A stretch of 64,000 nucleotides of DNA from Loxodes magnus (taxonomy: Eukaryota; Ciliophora; Karyorelictea; Loxodida; Loxodidae), in the NCBI GenBank assembly GCA_946699065.1, contig CAMPDV010001187.1:1-64000 (forward strand), given 5' to 3'. The notes beneath the pieces are model-generated. The model was not told where the DNA came from, searched no databases, and was given only the letters and a program-made list of their open reading frames with translations. A program made the translations under genes and the position numbers. How positions within the stretch are numbered: position 1 is the stretch's first letter; every line of letters begins with the position of its first letter. Positions 16,293 through 63,600 of this stretch are shown piece by piece.

Positions 16293-18124
16293 ATAATCAA
16301 ATTTATTTATTTATTTATAACATTCTTGATAATTTTCCATCTAATAGAAATCTAACATCTAGATCTTTATGAAATTATTTAATATTATTTATTAGTGCTA
16401 AAGGTATTTTAATTCTTCTTAAATGATTAAAAAATAGACATCTATCAATATTATCAAGCATCTTTTCAACATCAATAAGAGTAGAGAGCTAATGTTTCTT
16501 CTTTCCTCATCTTCTATACAAATAATTAATTGATTATAAGGTTCATATTTAGTGTAAAGTTTATCTTTTCTTCAGAAATCCCTAATTGTGAAGGATGTAT
16601 AATCTTTCATTATTCAATATATTCATATAATCTTTAAGTAAGCTTTTTATCATATATTTTAAGGATGACGTTTATAAGTGCAATAGGTCTCCAATTTCTT
16701 CAATCGCTTTTTGTTCCCTTTTTGTAAATAGGAAGTATTATTATTTGCTTAAGTTCATTCGGATTTTTTTGATTTCTTAGCATGTTATTTATAAATTTCA
16801 AAAGCACAAAATAAAAATCTTTATTAACATATTTAACGAGTTCTGTTTTAATGCCATCAACTCCATTTTATTTGCTATTTCCTAACTTCTTTATAATTGT
16901 TTAAATTTCATTTAAATGAAATAGATCGAACTCTTGTCTATATATAGGTACCTGCTCTTATAAGAAATCACAATTTCTATAAATATTATCAATTTTTTAA
17001 TTACACTTTCATATTTCTTCCTCATCAATGTTTTTGTGCTTATTAAGAACATTATTTTCCTAATTGTATATGAAATTTGAAAACCCTTCTGAATCCAAAT
17101 ACATATTATTTCTCTTTCTTGGATTCAAAAACTTTTTGTTTACTTAAATATTTTAGTAGGAGATTCATTCATTTATTCTCTATTTTTTTGGCTTATTTTT
17201 ACTTGTATTTCCAGTAATTACTTTTTTATCTTTTAATAAGCCAACTTCAAAACTATCTAGTTTACCCTTCCTTATTATTCTAAAGCTTGCTGGTAAGTTA
17301 TTTGTGCTTATTTTGCTGCGTTAAAACTCTTAATAATATTTATTGGAAGTAAATTAAAGTTATTATTCTATGTAACTTATCCTAAGATTTAATCTGCATT
17401 ATTAATGAGTAAATGTCTTATAAAATAGTATTATTAATCTATATTATTTTAATCAATTGTATCAAAATTAATCAAGCATCATTCAAATAAGACTTTATAT
17501 TTAGATCTAATTTCTAAATTTTAAAGTTTATTAATCTTAAAATTTATTCTAGGAGTTAGAATTTGTACGTTTCTATTAATATTTTAGATAAGTAAGTTAA
17601 ACAGTATAGGAAAGTGATCTGTATCAAGTCAAGTGTTATGTGAAACTTAAAATAGTGTAATCTAATTAATGTTGATATGATAATTGACTATATCATAATA
17701 TTTGCAATCAGTTTTATGATTTACTCTACTTCTAAAAACAACAAATCATGTAGCATTAACTATTTATAAATCATATTCTTTAATAAAATTATTTAATCTT
17801 TAAGCGTTATTTTATTAATTTTATGAATTATTACTCCCATACTTTTACAAAAGAGCATAAAAGTCTCCCAATAGCATAAGGGCTTAATCTCCTACTTCAT
17901 TAAGGATATGTTCTAAGTTTTAATATGATTATTCTTTGACAGATAAAGTTTTTTCCTCTGTTGGCATATAATATGTTGCTAAATAAATGTTATTAACTTT
18001 AATTACTAAGAAACGACTAATTTAATCGCCAATGTCAATTTCAATTTGTCTCTAATCAAGTTCTTCTTTAACAATAAAGCAAACTCTGCTGATCTTTAGG
18101 ATTATTCGCAACTTTTAAAATATT

Positions 18125-20920: not shown

Positions 20921-22490
20921 TCAGATTAGGATTGGGCATGTCAATATAAATGGAATAGCAATAAATTATATTTAATTGAAGTATTTATAAGAGAAAATAG
21001 TTTTGGCATTTTTTAACCATCGAAACTTGTTTAAAACAATTTCTCTTAATTCTAATATAAGATTATTGACTGATCAGATACCAATTATGGTAAATTTTCT
21101 TTTTAACATAATCCTCTATTAGGTATAATTATCTAAAGAAATATAAAATTAATAAACAATTAATAGATATGAGTGATCTAATAAATATAGATATCTTTCC
21201 AAATAATCTTAAATAAATCTAATTTAATATCAATTTTAATATATTTGGAAATAATATTTAATTACATAGAGAATATATTATTATTAGATTATCTGTGAAG
21301 AATTAAATTAACTTTGGGATTAATATAAGCATTTAAATCATACTAAAAAAACCTTAGTTCATTATTTATTTAGAATTCTAGTCAATTTTAATATAACAAT
21401 GGAATTAAGCAGAGAAGCTCACATTAACATATGATAGACCCCTTTGCATATGAGTAGATTATGATACTTTCGACCGTATAATGGAATGTAATTAGTAATT
21501 AGATATAAGGAAATGACTATAGTATAAAGTTAGGAGTTTTTAAATAAAAAAATTTGATTCTTAATGATCGAGTCTATATAAACGCGTTTCCTAGAAGTTA
21601 AGAAATATAGGTAGAATTACAAATAAAAATATTTCACAGATTAATACTTGATGGATAAATGAAGCTATTAAAAAAGATATTAATGAATAATAAGAAGATG
21701 TTTAGATAAGAAATGCTAACGAAGAGGAAGTGATATGACGAAACTTTTTAAATTTTAATGTCTTTAATTGAAAGAAAAATTCTGATAATTAAGAATATAT
21801 AAAAATATTTTAAGTTTAAATTTAAATTATTTAATAGCAATACACATAATCTGAAAGATAAACTATTAAAATGATGGAGATTAATTTTAGAGCTTTTTTA
21901 AAAATTTATTATTATAATTTAAAAACATTGAAAAAATATATATTAAGTAGCTAGGATAATTGTAAATATTAAATATATTATAATTATTGGAAAGAAATAA
22001 AACACTTAGATTCATATCAATTATAAAAATTTAAAAAAGCGAATTAGCAAAAATATTATTTTATTATATTAAAAAATTAAATAAAGAGCTATTTAACTAA
22101 TTATTTATTTTTAGAGTTTGAGGGCTACTGACTTTAGCCGTACTGTGTTTTCTGAACGACTTTAACAAAGAAGGAAAAATTAAAATAAAAAAATTTTAAC
22201 TTTGAGTAAATATTGATAAAATTATAGGCTTAAAATAGCTATCTGTAATTACAAAATTTAATTTCTAAAATCTGGTTTCTTTCCGAAAATATTCTATCAA
22301 TACTAAGATTTCAAACATAAATCAACTTTAAATGTTTGTAAGATATAAACTATACCTCATTGAAATTAAAAGAAATTAAATAATATTAAAAAACTATTAT
22401 ATTTATAAAAACAAAAATAATAATTTTTTTTTATTTACTATTAGAAATGTAAAAGAATGAAAGTAAATGTTTAACTTATATATAGTAAAT
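20921..22490 (+). mobile_element. Second LINE, endonuclease part only visible
   Basis: The frame at 20925-20958 reads IRIGHVNINGIA, the typical N-terminal strand of a LINE AP-endonuclease (I-x-H-x-N-[IV]-N-G). A VNFN at about 21390 stands where GDFN is expected. At 21646-21670 the sequence gives T-W-W-I-N-E-A-I-K-K, the conserved WW-x-x-E segment that joins endonuclease and RT in many LINEs. Its first Trp is TGA (21649-21651) and its second TGG. A linker with KYQIYYNYWKEIKHLDSY-like sequence follows near 21960-22010. No RT box A, B or YADD is recognisable before the SINE-like copy at 22509, nor downstream. The copy lacks its 3' half or that half is decayed beyond recognition, the reverse of the usual 5' truncation. 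Confidence 0.6.
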
Positions 22491-26899: not shown

Positions 26900-27662
26900 A
26901 TTTTAAATTAATATAATAATATAATAATGTGGCATCACCTTTATTTACCTTACCATAAATTAGAGTTTATAGAATTTTGTAGTAATTAATAGGTCTCGAA
27001 ATCGTATTATACTTGATTTTTTTAATCGTAAATTCTTATAACATTTTTATTTTCTCCTCTTGCTAATTCTTGTAAGTCAAATCCAGATTGTATCTCTCAA
27101 TGCCTTTTAGATTTTTGAAGTTTCTAAGAATGGTTAAAATATTTTTTCTTGAAAGTCTTCTGTTTGGAAGCATAAGATTATGAATAAATTTTAGATTTCT
27201 CTTTCAGTTACTTAAGATTGTTTCTTCTTAAATCGTTAACACTAATTAAACTTGTGTCCATACTTATAGCAATATCAACATTTAATTTTTCTTTTCTAAT
27301 AGAATAAGTTTTAATTCAGATTCTTCTCCTTATGATTCTGAATTTGATAGTTAACTGAGCTTGATATGCTCCAGTTAACTGATCCTCTGGGAAAAATTTT
27401 ATCTTAAATTTCATTCGATTTGACCAATTTATCTTTCTATCTATTTCTAAGGAAATAGTCTATTATTTAATTTCTTGCTTAGAGTCCTATTAATTTACCA
27501 ATTAGTTAATGGCTAACATGAGAGATTAAATTATTAATTTAAAGTCTTAAACTTCTTTTGCTAGCTTCTAATTATCCAATTGTAACAATAGAAATAGTTA
27601 GCAAAGTCTGGTTAATTTTTAGATTTTGTTGGAGAATTCTATTATTTCTTAGATGCCATTTT
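26900..27662 (-). mobile_element. ORF1-only retroposon B (half-LINE-like)
   Basis: Starts at ATG 27659 with MASKKQQNSPTK. A Gln/Lys-rich helical part follows. At about 27250-27290 the sequence gives K-C-W-Y-C-Y-K-Y-G-H-K-F-N-Q-C, a textbook C-x2-C-x4-H-x4-C zinc knuckle whose Trp is encoded by TGA. The 3' stem-loop at 26930-26955 has TGG/CCA with the shared AAATAAAGGTGA loop, followed by a (TTATTA) tail. It looks broken, with few breaks. It lies tail-to-head with element A, about 0.5 kb away. Confidence 0.7.
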
Positions 27663-28852: not shown

Positions 28853-31135
28853 TCAACTCACACCCAATTGCATAGATTTCCACTCTCTAGATTTAAAAAA
28901 ACTACCTCCTTTTATGTCGTAATAATATATCACATTTGCCTATGACTTATAATCACTACTCCACATCCATATGACATTATTCACATATTAACCATTGTAT
29001 CAGAAATTAGATGATTATTATGGATATTAACTACCATCCCTTATCATGGACCTAGTGTCAAACACACAAGTTTACTAAAGATGATTACTCCTGTCCCAAA
29101 TATAAGCACACTCAGTCTCATTCACTCACACACTTGCCAAATCAGCTGCCGGCTTAGGTAACTCCATCCCATACTACTAATACACACTCAACCTCACGTC
29201 ATATGATGATACCAAACTTGATCTAGTGAAATTATTAGATAAATCTGAACTTTATATATGACCACCCACTATCCATACTCTCTCATGTGATACCCATATT
29301 CCATTAGCATGGATACAGTCCTTATTACTCAACAATGACACAGACTTATTCAGGACTATGTCGTACACCTCCAATGAATTGTAGTAATTATAATAATCAT
29401 GAGATGATGCAGAATAAGATTACGGATTCTTTCCTCCTAATATATACAACAATCTGTCATTGTCATATCCCATTTATTTGATTGCTCTTGGCTAGATCAA
29501 AGAAGCTTATGCTTTTATTCCTGAATCACTACCTACAGTTATTTATAAGATCTTATCCAGATGTGATTAAGTTGATTTACCACCTACCTAGATTAGTAAC
29601 TCATCAGAGATCTAATATGTCAAGGAACAATTTTGAGTGATTGGAGTCATTTTTGATACCGCATTGTAAACATAGGAGCCATTGATACTGTCCAACTTGT
29701 AACTTTAGATCTTATTGGTACCATAGAATACTCTCCTATATACTGCTATCCTTGGTGGAGAATTATTCACTCTCTTAAGTATTAGATACTTATAGATAGA
29801 ATCCTTCACCAACTCACTCCATTCACTGACTTGAATTTATTTAGCTTAAGACTTTATCTATTCCAAAGAATATGGCAAATCTTTTAATTACTATTCTTTT
29901 TATCTAAGCTAGTCATTGATATTTTTATTATCGGCTTCCAACTAACTAAATGCAGATTTTATACTCTCCTACTTCTTCAATAAGATTCTCATTTACTCTT
30001 TGTAATTGATATTCTCTTATGCTAATTTATGTAACTAGTCTTATAATTAAGTGATAGCAGACTTATTAAGAGCTAAATCTTATTGAAGTTAAGCATTTTA
30101 TTGTTGTAGTTTTTATATCTCTTAAGCATATTAGAGCTACTTGGCCTGAAGTTATTAGTCCTTATTGCTTAACTAGAGTTGAAAGTCTTATTCTTTGTTT
30201 TCTTACTAGAGGAACCGTTATTGAAAGTCTTAGTATAAACGCTTTATTACTAACTATAATTGCTTGATCTAGCTTGCTTAGGCCATGTAACTCTAGTATA
30301 CTTGGTTAGGCTAAAGCTACTGCGTTAGATGAGAAACGATAAAATTCTAGAGAGCCTATTAACTTAAATTCTCGCGACATACAACAGATGATGATTAGGA
30401 GATACTCTAGAACCTATCCTAGATTGCTAACTCAATTTGATTCAACTGTCTCTTCTTATTCTCACACTGATTGATATTATCCTAGGAACTATTTGAGATA
30501 GCTTCGACCTAACTTCCTATCACCTGATAGTAAATAGATGTTTCTTTAAGTAACTACATTTACTTCTTTATTTAGTATTATTAATCATTCACCATCTTCT
30601 AACAGGCTTACTTGATACTCTACTTGATCTATAGCTATACCTAAACCATATTAGCCATTCTGGATATCTACAATTAACTTATCTGACTATACCATTAATA
30701 CAATGTAGATATGTATTAAACCAGTCTCTACTTGATAGCTCTAAAAGTGGATTCCAAGTAACTCTTTAAATGCTAGATTGCATCCTACGTAGCGATACAT
30801 CTATGTCCTTAATGCGATGTATACTAACATTGTACACATATTCTTATACTGTCCTATACGCAATATAGAGATAAGGAATACTATCTATGAATAAGGCAGA
30901 TGTCCTAAGGATTGGTGGAGTTCTATGCCTATTGCCTTACTAAGTTCATAATTGGTAATGACTCGATTGGTCTTTACGTGGTGATGTTATGCTTGTTGCA
31001 TATAAACTTTTATTGTAGTCTATAAATGCCTTTCACGCATTTCTCACATAGAATACATCCGCAGTCCAACTGCCTAGGCTTTTTAAGCTCTTAGTTGAAA
31101 TCTTTCACACATGCTTCACACTTGGCCGCTGACAT
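28853..31135 (-). CDS. RING / B-box / coiled-coil / kelch-repeat protein (TRIM-like)
   Basis: The best host gene in the window: 760 codons, ATG 31135 to TGA 28853, read with UAA/UAG = Gln. A RING-type finger comes first: C6, C9, C25, C27, C30, C33, C46, H49 (C in the usual His position, His last). A complete B-box 2 follows: C80, H83, C92, D95, C100, C103, H108, H111. A Gln-rich coiled coil runs from about 120 to 430, then kelch-type blades with Gly-Gly at 518-519, 567-568 and 624-625 (for example RLLYILGGKN, RVWIVGGHIQ). This layout is the TRIM pattern with a kelch propeller as the substrate-binding part, so a cytosolic E3 ubiquitin ligase or scaffold is likely. Two in-frame TGAs, codons 670 (29128-29126) and 712 (29002-29000), lie inside the propeller in contexts suited to Trp. 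The domain continues past both, so they are read as sense. GC is well above the flanks. No intron is needed. Confidence 0.9.
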
Positions 31136-49900: not shown

Positions 49901-51092
49901 GATTAATAAAATAGACATTTAAAGGCATTAGATTTATAACTAAAGCAGATTATATTACTTGCAGATAAAAAGGAGACTCTAGCAATAATATATCATATAA
50001 CTACAACAGCATTATCACAGTTAAATTTTAAGTTTAAAAAATTTAGATAAGACTAATAATATTAATTAGCTTAATAGAATTAAAGATAATAGAAGTATAG
50101 TATCTAATATATAAGTAGTAACTAGTTATTGCTAATAAAGACAATTTAATAGTTATTATATAATCCTTTATTAAAACTAGTCTCTTTATTATCTATTATC
50201 TACTATCTTCTTTATTCTTAATATTTTACTAAATAAGGTTAAGTTATACCATTATTATAGCTATTCCTATATATTTCTTAGGAGAAAGCAAATAAAACAT
50301 TAAAGCTCTGAGTTTCTAAGAGAAGCCTAGCTATATTAATACAGTCTAAGGTAATCATTGAGACTGGAACTTTAAATGTGTCTAGAAGTTATAATAGAAT
50401 GTTCTATACCTTGTGATTAAGTATTTGCAGTTAAGATTTTTAAAATGATTTAATCGTTAAAGTTTAGTAAGGTATCATAAGAATGAGGTAGCTATTACTT
50501 TGATTAAAAGCAGTTAAGTTAGTTAAGGTTTAAAGAACTAATTATTGAGGAAATGTTGTTGAACCAAAATTGGGAATATGTATGCAGTTTGAAGAGATTT
50601 AGATTATAGAAGAGTAAAGTAATAAATAGCAATTCTGTAAGGAAAGAAAAAGAAATAACTAACAAATCAGCATTTATAGTTTTAAAATTTAGCTTCTAGA
50701 GGAAAATTCTTCTCAGCAGGGGAAGTTAGAGATAGTCTGGAATTCTTCAGCAGATAAAGTTAAGAACTACAGAAAACATTTATTTGATATGTGAATAATA
50801 GTGGTGAATCTAGTGTCAAAATAATGAGTTAATGTAGAATGGTTCATTACTGAATAATAGTGTTTTGAATATATATGAGTGATTTAAAATAATAATGGTA
50901 ATGATTTAAAAAGGATTAGTGTTATTATATTTGATTGGCTGAAATAGTAGTAATAAATTGGGTAGCTCATTACACTATAGATAATTATAAAAAGGATAAT
51001 TAATTTAAAGATATAAAACATGAAAGATGTTTATTAGATATCGTCCATGCGGAAATTATAATACACGAGAGCCATGCAGGGGAGTATGGCAG

Positions 51093-51354
51093 GTCATTCA
51101 AGTTTCTGTCCTAACATTTCGATTGTAGTGTATTGGACTACCAAGACAGTGACGGATAACGGAGAATTAGAGTTCGATTCTGGAGAGGAAGTCTGAGAGA
51201 CTGCTACCGCATCTAAGGAAGGCAGTAGGCGCACAAATTACCCAATCCTGACTGAGAGAGATAGTGACAAAAAATAACGACATTGGGCTTCGTCTCGGTG
51301 ATTGGAATGATCACAACGTAAAAGCGTTAGCGATAGCCCACTGGAGAGTAAGTC
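51093..51354 (+). pseudogene. 18S (SSU) rRNA fragment, sense
   Basis: About 260 nt match eukaryotic 18S rRNA from TCATTCAAGTTTCTG through GTAGTGTATTGGACTACC, GATAACGGAGAATTAG, GCATCTAAGGAAGGCAG, AAATTACCCAATCCTGAC, ATTGGAATGATCACAACGTA to CTGGAGAGTAAGTC. It stops just before the universal GTGCCAGCAGCCGCGG block, about yeast 18S positions 300-560. It is better preserved than the antisense copy at 1120-1345, but conserved bases are changed (for example CTGCTACCGC for CGGCTACCAC), so it is a decayed fragment and not an rDNA unit. The flanks are ordinary AT-rich DNA. Confidence 0.9.
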
Positions 51355-51399
51355 CTCCAATTTTGTTCTAGAGGTCTTTAAAAAATATAGTATATATTA

Positions 51400-53037: not shown

Positions 53038-53880
53038 AATAATAATAATAATATACTTAAAGTTAGTAGAGTTTTGCATTCTCTGGAATTGCAACCAGTT
53101 CCTGCGGACAGCTTTTTTAACGTGGGCGTGATCCACGACCTTTTTATTAAGTGGAAGGTTACCACTGTAACCGTTCAAGTGGTCTTGCAAAAAGCTTTTA
53201 TTTGTAGATCCCTGTTGGAGTTATTCATAGTTTATTGAGTTGTCTCCATGTTCTTTTCTGCTCTTATTCGTTTATTTTCTTTCACTATCAACAGTTTTTT
53301 AAAATATGTTGATTTGATTTGCAACATCAACAAAGTTTGTATTATTGTCTTTATTTCGTTCTTTTTTATGATAATTTATTTTCTATATTTTCTAATCTTT
53401 TAATGAAACTTGTAGCAATCATTTCTTTTTCTGGATTCAATTCTGTTTTTAATTCTATTGGTATTTTTTCTATTTCCATTTTTGTGTCGTATTTAAAATT
53501 TTATTATGATTAAGTTCAGAGTTATTCTTCCGTTATTAATTTGCTACAAATAAGTTATCTTCTAAGTATTAGTAATTCGTTGTTCTAATCTTCTATATTA
53601 CTCATTAGTTCCCGTATTTTTTCGCCTAAGTTGTAAGTTGTTTCTTCATAATTTGAGATTACTTTTTACATTTGGTCTAATTAAATTTAAAGTTTTTGAT
53701 TAGTTTCGTTTTTAGGTTAACTTATCTCTATTTATCCTACCATAACTTTACCTTCTGAAGAAGAGCTTGACTCCTCCTATTGTTATTATTTTTTCTAAAT
53801 TTCTTTTGCCGCTTTTCTCTTTAGGTTTCTAAGTTAATTTTTTGAGAGTCGAAGAGATTAATCCATTTTTTTTTTTTTTT
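53038..53880 (-). mobile_element. Complete ORF1-only retroposon F, 843 bp, with target duplication
   Basis: The element is bounded by a perfect 14-bp duplication, so its true ends are known. On the minus strand it starts with a poly(A) run of about 14 and ATG 53866 (MDQSLRLSKNQLRN...). It continues with a Ser/Glu-rich and coiled-coil part containing DQNNELLILRRQL (53552-53590), a motif shared exactly with element E. A single zinc knuckle, C-W-C-C-x4-H-x4-C, has its first Trp as TGA (about 53310). It ends with a structured 3' region and an (ATT)n tail. Length and ends show that an ORF1-only unit moves as such and is not a truncated long LINE. The reading frame looks broken at one or two places. 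The family resembles mammalian HAL1 half-LINEs in concept. Confidence 0.8.
53083..53196 (-). ncRNA. Structured 3' region of retroposon F (candidate RNA fold)
   Basis: An outer 8-bp stem AGCTTTTT (53110-53117) with AAAAAGCT (53189-53196) encloses two perfect hairpins. These are CGTGG/CCACG (53121-53125 with 53133-53137) and GGTTAC/GTAACC (53157-53162 with 53167-53172, loop CACT). A third small stem, CTGG/CCAG (53083-53086 with 53095-53098), lies outside toward the tail. The patch is GC-rich against its surroundings. It occupies the place of the single stem-loop in other family members and is probably the signal by which the RT machinery recognises the element RNA. No separate gene is implied. 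Confidence 0.55.
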
Positions 53881-57399: not shown

Positions 57400-58195
57400 G
57401 AGGAAAAACGATTCAAGAAATGGACAAAAACCAATAGAAATATGAGGAATCAAGATCTCAACAGAAGGTATAGGAACCTAAGAGATAGGGAAATCTTAAA
57501 ATTAAATTGACCAAAAAATTCTAAAATTTACTAGACTGAATACAAAAACTAATCTAAATATGAAGAAATAATTACAATTAAGAGTAAAAAATCAGAGAAT
57601 TAGTGAACATATTGACGACTAAAATAATGAGTTATTAATACTACGTCGTCAGCTAATCTAAAATAACTTAGTTTCAGAACAGTCTCTTTATGAGCAATCA
57701 CAACTGATAGTTTTCAATTAAAAAGACGTGATTATAAAAAGAGACTTAATTAAATTAATCGATTAAGTAGAAACTAGAAGGAAAAAATGATATTAATTTA
57801 CAAAAGAGAACAGACAAATTGGAATGAAAGTGTTTTATGAAACAAATCCAGAAAAATATACCAAAAACTGCTGATACTGCTATTTAATTAATCATGTTTT
57901 ACGGCAATACTGTTCCTGAAAATAACTTTTTTTGTTAAAAGAATAATTAAGAACATGATAGATGATGAACAAACTCTGAATAACTGAAAATAGAGTTTTT
58001 AAATAGAAAATTTAATTAAGAAATGAAGAAAATTATGAGCAGTAACCTAACTCATATAAAAAAAGGCTTTCCACTTAAAAAAATTATAGCAGGTATCTGG
58101 TTGAAAGCCCAAAGAAAGCTAAAACTTAAATTTTTAAGTATATTATAATAATATTATATTATAATAATATTATATTATATTATATTATATTATCA
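57400..58195 (+). mobile_element. ORF1-only retroposon E (half-LINE-like)
   Basis: Starts at ATG 57420 (MDKNQQKYEESRSQQK). At 57613-57655 it encodes DDQNNELLILRRQLI, matching element F. At about 57867-57912 a zinc knuckle C-W-Y-C-x4-H-x5-C appears with its Trp encoded by TGA. The 3' end has its own 7-bp stem GGCTTTC (58065-58071) with GAAAGCC (58103-58109) and a 31-nt loop that does not share the AAATAAAGGTGA sequence, so E is a different subfamily. A (TATTATAA)n tail runs from about 58139 to 58193. The frame looks broken, with a few breaks. Confidence 0.7.
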
Positions 58196-60639: not shown

Positions 60640-63600
60640 TTTAAATTTAAATTTACTAAAAATGTCTATACTATATTATTTATAGTAATAAAAAACTTTG
60701 AATTTTGGAACTCTTTCTCAACTTTTCTACTCTTGTATTAAATTTAATTCTAAATCTTTTTTTACAGTTAATGTGTTTATTTATTTTCACTTTTTTAAAA
60801 TAGAAGTTCTTTTTCAAATTAATCTTTTTACTAAATGATTTCATTTCTTTTTCTGAGCAATTTTTATGAAAAATCTTGATTCTAAGGTCAATTTTCTTGA
60901 GCTACTGAATACTTATAAAGTTCTCATTTAAATATTTTTGGTTATAGGTTAAGAGATTTAATAAGTTATAATTTTTAAAGTCTTTAAATTCTTCAATTAA
61001 CTCTTTCAAGACCTCACATGTTGGAATATGTCTAAAAGTATCAAGGTCTCCGCAAGAACATGTTTCAAAGCTTTAAATGTTATAATACCTTTACAGTAAA
61101 TCATATTAGAAGTTATAGGAAAATGTTATAAGCTTATAAATCGATACAATTTCTCTTACCATATGTTTGTTAAGATTAGAGCAAGTGTAGATTGGGAATT
61201 ATGAGGTGCTATTGTCAATTTAATTTACATATAAGCATGCTGTAGGCATTAAGTTCATTCTTATTATTGAATCTAAACAAAATGTTTGTCTTATTTTATT
61301 TCAAACTACTCGTAGGAATTCTTTGCTTTCTTTAACATCCAAATAATCAAATTAAAAATGCAGGGAAAGTTTCTATAATTTTTTAAAATAATTAAGATTA
61401 CTGTTTTTTGTTTTATTATAGAGAAAAGCTATATCAGACTTAGGATTTGTTTCTTTTTCTTCAAGTAATTTGAGATAAAATTTAAAGTATCTCATGATAT
61501 ATAATATTCAAATGGAAGTCAATTCAAATCTATGAAGAAAATTCGTTAAAAGAGGATCTAGGACTCTTAAATGCATATCTTGATATTTTTCTCTGACTAA
61601 TATTTATATCTTTTTTGATTTTCTTTATTCCTTTTAGAATAGCTCATGGTATTATTTCCGATCCATATTCAACTTTCGATAATATAAAAGATTGAAAGAT
61701 TTATTTAAATTTTATGGCGAAATATTTCTATATTTTGCAAGTTATAGCAAAGTTCCATTCACACATTTCCCTATACTTTCGGCAAATTTCATAAAAAATG
61801 AATTTATAATTTTATAGTTCATTAAAATTAAATCCTAAATATGTAACATTTTTTACTTTTTGATAATGTTATTATTCAAAGTAATATTAAAATCTAATCA
61901 TTCTATTTTTAATTCTTCTTAAGAAAACATATATATTCACACTTTTCTGTATTAATTGATAGTTTTACTCAACTAAACAATTTTCAAACAGCTTTTATTA
62001 AAGAATTCATATTATCTTCATTTGAAATCAATAAAAAATCATCAGCCCATTCTTTAGTTACAAAATAACAGTTCAAAATTTAAATATAATCTAATACCAA
62101 TATCATAGAAAATTATAGCAAGTACTGGCCCATGTGAACTTCTTTAGAATACACCATTGCTATATTATATATATTATTTTTTAATACCGCCATAGTTGTT
62201 CGAAGGTGAACAACAAGGTCATCTTCATCAGAGATTGTGGAAGTTAAGTACCCATAATCGACTTTATGTCTTCCTCTGTTTTGGTTTGACCTCGAGACAT
62301 AAGATTCTTAGACCTTCGACACTGGCTTGACTTGGCTTCGTTTATTTTTAATACTGGAACGAAAAAGAAATAATATTGCGAGCTTCATCAGAGGTGGGGA
62401 ATTTAAGTACCCATAATTGACACATGTCGTCCTCTGCTTTGGTGATGCAATGAGACATAATCCTGCCATGTCCTTGGACCTCCAGCAAGTATTAAAGATT
62501 ACGAGTATTCTAAAATTATATCAGTATTGAATATTTTTATAAGTACTGAATAATTATACCAGTATTGAACAAGGTCCACCAGTATCTGATAATTTTATCA
62601 GTAATAAACATTCTTGTCAGTATGAAACATTTTTTTTAAAGAGCTGCGCACCAACAAGAGTGCTACGCGCTCTATAATCAAATTTATTTATTTATTTATA
62701 ACATTCTTGATAATTTTCCATCTAACAGAAATCTAACATCTAGATCTTTATGAAATGATTTAATATTATTTATTAGTGCTAAAGGTATTTTAATTCTTCT
62801 TAAATGATTAAAAAATAGACATCTATCAATAGTTATCAAGCATCTTTTCAACATCAATAAGAGTAGAGAGCTAATGTTTCTTCTTTCCTCATCTTCTATA
62901 CAAATCATTAATTGATTATAAGGTTCATATTTAGTGTAAAGTTTATCTTTTCTTCAGAAATCCCTAATTGTGAAGGATGTATAATCTTTCATTATTCAAT
63001 ATATTCATATAATCTTTAAGTAAGCTTTTTATCATATATTTTAAGGATGACGTTTATAAGTGCAATAGGTCTCCAATTTCTTCAATCGCTTTTTGATCCT
63101 TTTTGTAAATAGGAAGTATTATTATTTGCTTAAGTTAATTTGGATTTTTTTTATTTCTTAGCATGTTATTTATAAATTTTAAAGCACAAAATAAAAATCT
63201 TTATTAACATATTTAACGAGTTCTGTTTTAATGCCATCAGCTCCATTTTATTTGTTATTTCCTAACTTCTTTATAATTGTTTAAATTTCATTTAAATGAA
63301 ATAGATCGAACTCCTGTCTATATATAGGTACCTGCTCTTATAAGAAATCACAATTTCTATAAATATTATCAATTTTTTAATTACACTTTCATATTTCTTC
63401 CTCATCAATGTTTTTGTGCTTATTAAGAACATTATTTTCCTAATTGTATATGAAATTTGAAAACCCTTATGAATCCAAATACAACTATTTGTCTTTCTTG
63501 GATTCAAAAACTTTTTGTTTACTTAAATATTTTAGTAGGAGATTCATTCATTTATTCTCTATTTTTTTGGCTTATTTTTACTTGTATTTCCAGTAATTAC

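Follow-up and report, generated by a model that had tools for sequence, protein, structure and literature searches.

The window, by which we mean the whole analysed stretch of 64,000 nucleotides of Loxodes magnus DNA, carries a gene on its minus strand at positions 28853..31135. The gene has 760 codons and a terminal TGA, and its product resembles a protein with a B-box, a coiled coil, kelch-like sequence and perhaps a RING finger. It contains 90 in-frame TAA or TAG codons and two in-frame sense TGA codons, the latter at Trp positions at 29126..29128 (codon 670) and 29000..29002 (codon 712); the terminal TGA (28853..28855, codon 761) follows 49 codons past the last of these. This codon count agrees with the earlier note, which had reported dozens of in-frame TAA/TAG and the same two TGA codons. 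In total, the 761 codons comprise 47 TAA, 43 TAG, 3 TGA, 8 TGG, 14 CAA and 7 CAG. The six-frame codon frequencies of the window were used to calculate the expectation for a random frame of 761 codons, which is about 11.6 TGA, 44.2 TAA and 16 TAG. Compared with chance, TGA is scarce in this frame, TAG is enriched, and TAA is at the chance level.

In a Pfam search of the open reading frame, the B-box zinc finger alone scored above the cut-off (PF00643, E 3.1e-8; residues 76-114, encoded at 30794..30910 on the minus strand with UAR codons in frame). The matches to RING (E 0.028) and to Kelch_6 (E 0.094, residues 562-597) both failed it, and the latter lies upstream of both sense TGAs. The label of a RING/B-box/kelch gene given in the earlier note can thus be kept for the B-box, but its RING and kelch parts stay below the cut-off. 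Similarly, Pfam gives no support for kelch sequence beyond the two TGAs, but the continuation of the frame is borne out by the paralogues, which have both TGAs and a common end. A search of the genome (705,730,643 bases in 7,843 contigs, with the window on C1187) using the kelch-like gene returned 49 near full-length matches, itself included, and the reported gene was compared with 40 of the 48 others. Each of the two sense codons is TGA in all 41 genes, and the terminal TGA lies 46-49 codons downstream of the last sense one. In every case no other stop-type codon intervenes between the EWK of the motif EWKSM and this terminal TGA, which stands 7-11 codons past the E. TGA/TGG exchange in this family proved uninformative as evidence for synonymy, since no Trp column in the 41 genes contains both codons. 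Among 17 conserved Gln columns, three mix UAR and CAR codons, with one exception each. For these 41 genes, pN/pS is 0.67 overall, with pN > pS in 10 of 41 overlapping windows of the comparison.

The family has at least 49 near full-length copies when identical copies are counted, and its framework codons are almost fixed. Highly variable columns (entropy > 1.5 bits; 29 of 329) occur as pairs or short blocks, e.g. at codons 471-472, 500-501, 520-521, 609-610, 637-638, 664-665, 682-685 and 706-710. The pattern looks as if propeller loops had been diversified on a TRIM-like scaffold. A literature search combining Loxodes and kelch turned up only work on radial spokes. Copies of the gene recur along contigs C420, C213, C719, C1462, C1184 and C829 in steps of approximately 45-53 kb (on C420 at 98871, 145624, 194582 and 240383), a spacing that points to segments of about 47 kb having been duplicated in tandem.

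In-frame TGA codons at apparent Trp positions are also found in putative mobile elements of the window, which the earlier note had cited as independent support. The codons are present as described. One stands in NAT-[TGA]-F of a minus-strand frame labelled there as endonuclease-like (17746..17748) and another in [TGA]-W-I-N-E on the plus strand (21649..21651). The motif D-[TGA]-RNWRPIA occurs twice on the minus strand, in what were labelled as two LINE copies (TGA at 16700..16702, motif from 16705; TGA at 63082..63084, motif from 63087). Moreover, three zinc-knuckle-like C-x-x-C motifs have TGA as their second codon, at 27275..27277 (minus strand, C-TGA-x-C from 27280), 53327..53329 (minus strand, from 53332) and 57872..57874 (plus strand, from 57869). 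What did not find support is the identity of two of the elements, as the frames around 17746 and 21649 matched no Pfam family at E <= 0.01. Because the Trp assignments within the window rest on motifs, evidence from outside the window was needed.

The use of UGA differs between a retroelement family and genes. In the reverse transcriptase (RT) domain of eight copies of one family, which are closely related and hence not independent, 64 TGA were counted vs 8 TGG, so nearly all RT-domain Trp codons are TGA. The corresponding numbers are 19 vs 44 in Prp8 and 2 (the stop aside) vs 8 in the kelch-like gene. RT-domain matches of equal score are repeated every 2,532 bp on C20 (2028, 4560, 7092) and C5131 (12904 to 25564), so that a single piece of a retroelement is arrayed in tandem there. 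The window also contains two partial matches to eukaryotic SSU rRNA of about 450 bp, at 1119-1567 on the minus strand and 50905-51361 on the plus strand. Both correspond to the 5' third of the model and are dispersed rRNA fragments, not whole genes.

Sense meanings in Prp8

Prp8 gave one genome match to the Pfam family PROCN, and 9.9 kb were taken for reading. Every TAA, TAG and TGA in the frame was replaced by X before alignment to PDB, and human Prp8 (3jcr_A) served as the reference. Over the 2,279 codons aligned to the human protein, which stay in a single frame, the gene contains 100 in-frame TAA/TAG/TGA codons. Codons 686-1588 and 1689-2645, i.e. 1,860 of these 2,279, were counted. All 15 TGA codons in the counted part stand opposite a human Trp, as do 33 of 35 TGG codons; if TGA were placed at random, the chance of such a result would be approximately 5e-24. 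Seen from the human protein, its 52 Trp positions correspond to 15 TGA, 33 TGG and 4 other codons. Four of the 19 sense TGAs in the gene (codons 2740, 2823, 2874 and 2892) lie outside the counted part.

The UAR codons could be assigned in the same way. TAA is found opposite human Gln in 35 of 47 cases and TAG in 11 of 17 (together 46/64), compared with 14 of 24 for CAA and 4 of 7 for CAG (together 18/31). UAR is thus no less often opposite Gln than CAR (Fisher P 0.24). The blind alignment of this single-copy gene thereby supports the readings UAA/UAG = Gln and UGA = Trp of the earlier note, which had itself named UGA opposite conserved Trp as a check to be made. Exchange between the two Trp codons, which the kelch family lacks, was observed among four glutathione peroxidase paralogues: the Trp of NFW(E/D)ID, IFKWLR and WNFGKF is encoded by TGG in some and by TGA in others.

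Gene ends and release factors

To find out which codons end genes, the frames were scanned past their conserved ends for whichever stop-type codon came first. It was TGA in 48 of 48 genes, of which 41 belong to one family: the 41 kelch-like genes, four of four glutathione peroxidase genes, both eRF1 genes and Prp8. The eRF1 genes end with DEDFL-TGA and, with two codons in between, have a second TGA; the terminal TGA of Prp8 lies 81 codons past its last sense TGA. UGA is therefore the only terminator among the gene ends read; no end at UAA or UAG was seen in these 48 genes, a sample that does not amount to a genome-wide survey. The stretches free of sense TGA ahead of the stop (46-49 codons in the 41 kelch-like genes, 81 in Prp8) agree with a meaning of UGA that depends on how close it lies to the 3' end of the mRNA or to the poly(A). 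Seah et al. 2024 (PMC11441545) describe a depletion of coding UGA and UAA over about the last 20 codons ahead of the stop in L. magnus.

The two eRF1 genes are located approximately 35 kb apart at C196:20094 and C196:54994; a third match to an eRF1 domain lies on C2. Both copies read ...DAHGRAQNIKS(K/R)AVQKAVQDAI... and ...INTTFFLCENTF... When one copy was aligned with human eRF1 (4d5n), the changes E55->A, T58->R, S60->Q, S70->A and Y125->F were found (residue numbers of human eRF1). Direct reading of the second copy revealed identical residues at all five sites. The elements of eRF1 involved in stop recognition are Glu55, TASNIKS, Ser70 and YxCxxxF, and a change of Ser70 to Gly is the one linked to UGA readthrough in Blastocrithidia (both from PMC12153298). 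Individual changes in eRF1 do not go along with the code in ciliates, as Swart et al. 2016 (PMC4967479) caution. The five altered residues are therefore counted as consistent with recoded stops, and as nothing beyond that.

Transfer RNAs

A search of the genome with a pattern for tRNAs with the anticodons UUA and CUA gave 293 matches, vs 69 for the reversed control. The tRNA(UUA) was folded by ARAGORN; the CUA tRNA is present as a repeated sequence only, so that its copies are candidate genes. In contrast, the pattern for a UCA anticodon produced 2 matches, neither folded as a tRNA by ARAGORN, while its reversed control gave 10. A tRNA-Trp(UCA) was therefore not found in the genome with this single arm-sequence pattern, which genes with other arm sequences would escape.

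For tRNA-Trp(CCA), the pattern search yielded 129 matches vs a background of 13; 118 of these were inspected, and the remaining 11 are close to the background number. Most copies lie in two arrays. A tandem array at C67:482.3-491.2 kb holds 48 copies in units of 182-195 bp, all with the mismatch A27.C43. The other locus, at C148:155-173 kb, has 67 copies with U27.C43, 66 of them in an array with units of mostly 241 bp and one an inverted copy. C110 carries two single genes with a 5-bp anticodon stem (U27-A43), and a match on C12 was not recognized as a tRNA by ARAGORN. Altogether, 115 of the 117 tRNA-Trp(CCA) genes folded by ARAGORN have an anticodon stem of 4 bp (27:43 is A.C in 48 and U.C in 67), and a pattern requiring a base other than C at position 43 matched the C110 pair only. 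Of the two possibilities raised in the earlier note, a tRNA-Trp(UCA) or a near-cognate tRNA, it is the second that has a likely counterpart in the genome, in 115 copies.

The two C110 genes were considered as pseudogenes due to their T-stem mismatches (2 and 1 in the ARAGORN folds). This was rejected, as their Rfam scores (60.4 and 59.6 bits) are as good as those of the array copies (58.2 bits), so they may be functional as well. A special dosage of tRNA-Trp was not borne out either. Tandem arrays in this genome are likewise formed by tRNA-Lys (UUU), by tRNA-Lys together with tRNA-Ala, by the UUA tRNA and by the CUA sequence, and the size of the tRNA-Trp arrays is therefore no sign of an adaptation to UGA.

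Three genes for tRNA-Sec with the anticodon UCA are found at C30:829388, C6:804625 and C6:164898 (tRNA-SeC(tca) according to ARAGORN; 73.9, 70.5 and 63.5 bits with a cut-off of 47), which makes selenocysteine a possible third meaning of UGA. Glutathione peroxidases were rejected as an instance, because all four have Cys, and two SelT-like (Rdx) matches stop short of the C-x-x-U site. UGA as Trp, stop and Sec is reported for Condylostoma magnum and the karyorelict Parduczia by Swart et al. 2016 (PMC4967479).

The code and how it may be read

Taken together, the code of this genome is almost certainly that of karyorelict nuclei (NCBI table 27), in which UAR is Gln and UGA is either Trp or stop. 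Seah et al. 2024 (PMC11441545) state this code for karyorelicts including Loxodes, with UGA as the only stop and as Trp, and give assemblies of 706 Mbp (macronuclear) and 848 Mbp (micronuclear) for L. magnus. Loxodes and Parduczia are named as members of table 27 in the literature (Seah et al. 2022 as cited in PMC11441545; Swart et al. 2016, PMC4967479). The code itself is thus already published and there is nothing new in it. The genes described here are like table 27 in having UAR as Gln, UGA as Trp inside genes and UGA as the only stop at their ends. In these genes the codons just ahead of the stop likewise lack sense UGA, and we see no difference in the code.

The earlier note had mentioned Condylostoma besides the karyorelicts. 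In the code of C. magnum (table 28), all three codons serve as both sense and stop, and some genes end with UAA or UAG. The sense meanings in Prp8 are identical under both codes, and so are shared by the two systems, as is the tRNA-Sec; according to PMC4967479, C. magnum is also alike in having no high-scoring cytosolic tRNA-Trp(UCA). However, the same source infers that the eRF1 of C. magnum can recognise each of the three codons, and it shows UAA ends, whereas none of the 48 ends read here is UAR. With TGA as the first stop-type codon at 48 of 48 ends (41 of one family) and UGA stated to be the only stop by Seah et al. 2024 (PMC11441545), table 28 is very improbable and table 27 fits better. 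We give even less credence to the view that the in-frame stops are meaningless because they belong to decayed genes or chance frames in AT-rich DNA. Mobile elements do abound, and the kelch-like gene has about as many TAA codons as expected from composition (47 vs 44.2). Still, single-copy Prp8 stays in one frame with its human counterpart despite 100 such codons, and the kelch frame is preserved in 49 near full-length matches with a pN/pS of 0.67 (41 genes), so that decay or chance can practically be dismissed.

Given table 27, the remaining alternative concerns how UGA is read as Trp. The part of the 4-bp tRNA-Trp(CCA) could be played by a cytosolic tRNA-Trp with the anticodon UCA or by a tRNA that is edited; a single pattern was used in the UCA search, and editing is invisible in DNA. 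However, that pattern found only 2 matches, neither of which could be folded, and so fewer than its reversed control. The CCA form with a 4-bp stem is present in 115 copies, and it is reported to raise UGA readthrough in reporters of T. brucei and yeast (PMC13092985). We therefore regard a UCA or edited tRNA as unlikely.

We rather favour the 4-bp tRNA-Trp(CCA), and consider it probable, with good confidence, that it is responsible for the reading of UGA. In this mechanism, UAA and UAG would be read as ordinary Gln codons by dedicated tRNAs with the anticodons UUA and CUA. An internal UGA would be decoded by the near-cognate tRNA-Trp(CCA) from the two tandem arrays, its anticodon stem loosened to 4 bp by the mismatch at 27:43. 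These two proposals draw on gene content and on published reporters: in yeast and T. brucei, the 4-bp tRNA-Trp raises UGA readthrough (PMC13092985 and PMC12005148). Close to the 3' end of the mRNA, eRF1 would win at UGA, probably aided by a short 3' UTR and the poly(A) tail, a role that has been proposed in print; this step is based on published data from relatives and on the codon gaps before the stop. The sense meanings, the gene ends at UGA, the structures of the tRNA genes and the residues of eRF1 were established directly; from them we infer that the array tRNAs read UGA and that the position in the mRNA decides its meaning.

A 4-bp tRNA-Trp in Loxodes has been attributed to Swart et al. 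in PMC13092985 and PMC12005148. In the literature searched, which did not cover this original report, we found no description of tRNA-Trp arrays of Loxodes, and the word tRNA is absent from the main text of PMC11441545. As far as the same two sources go, the 4-bp tRNAs-Trp of C. magnum, Blepharisma, Loxodes and Amoebophrya have in common with the array genes the CCA anticodon, a 7-nt loop and an open top pair of the stem. The U.C mismatch found in one of the arrays is the one given for Amoebophrya and C. magnum (U26 and C42 in the numbering of PMC12005148), and PMC13092985 gives the open pair of the anticodon stem as 26C.42U. Compared with the 4-bp tRNAs-Trp described in these two papers, this genome differs in having two mismatch forms, one per array, along with two 5-bp genes.

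To the known code, the present analysis adds a test of its readings by blind alignment of an essential gene. It also adds evidence at the level of genes for the likely machinery, namely tRNA arrays with two mismatch forms, two altered eRF1s and tRNA-Sec. A note of caution is added as well, in that tandem arrays are formed by further tRNA genes in this genome. Tentatively, and with slightly less than even confidence, nearly the whole supply of tRNA-Trp may be loosened and able to read a stop codon, so that one tRNA population would serve UGG and UGA. Stopping would then be left wholly to the two altered eRF1s and to the position in the mRNA, with Sec as a third reading. Few exceptions to an unambiguous code are as clear as a codon with two meanings, amino acid and stop, within the same cytoplasm.
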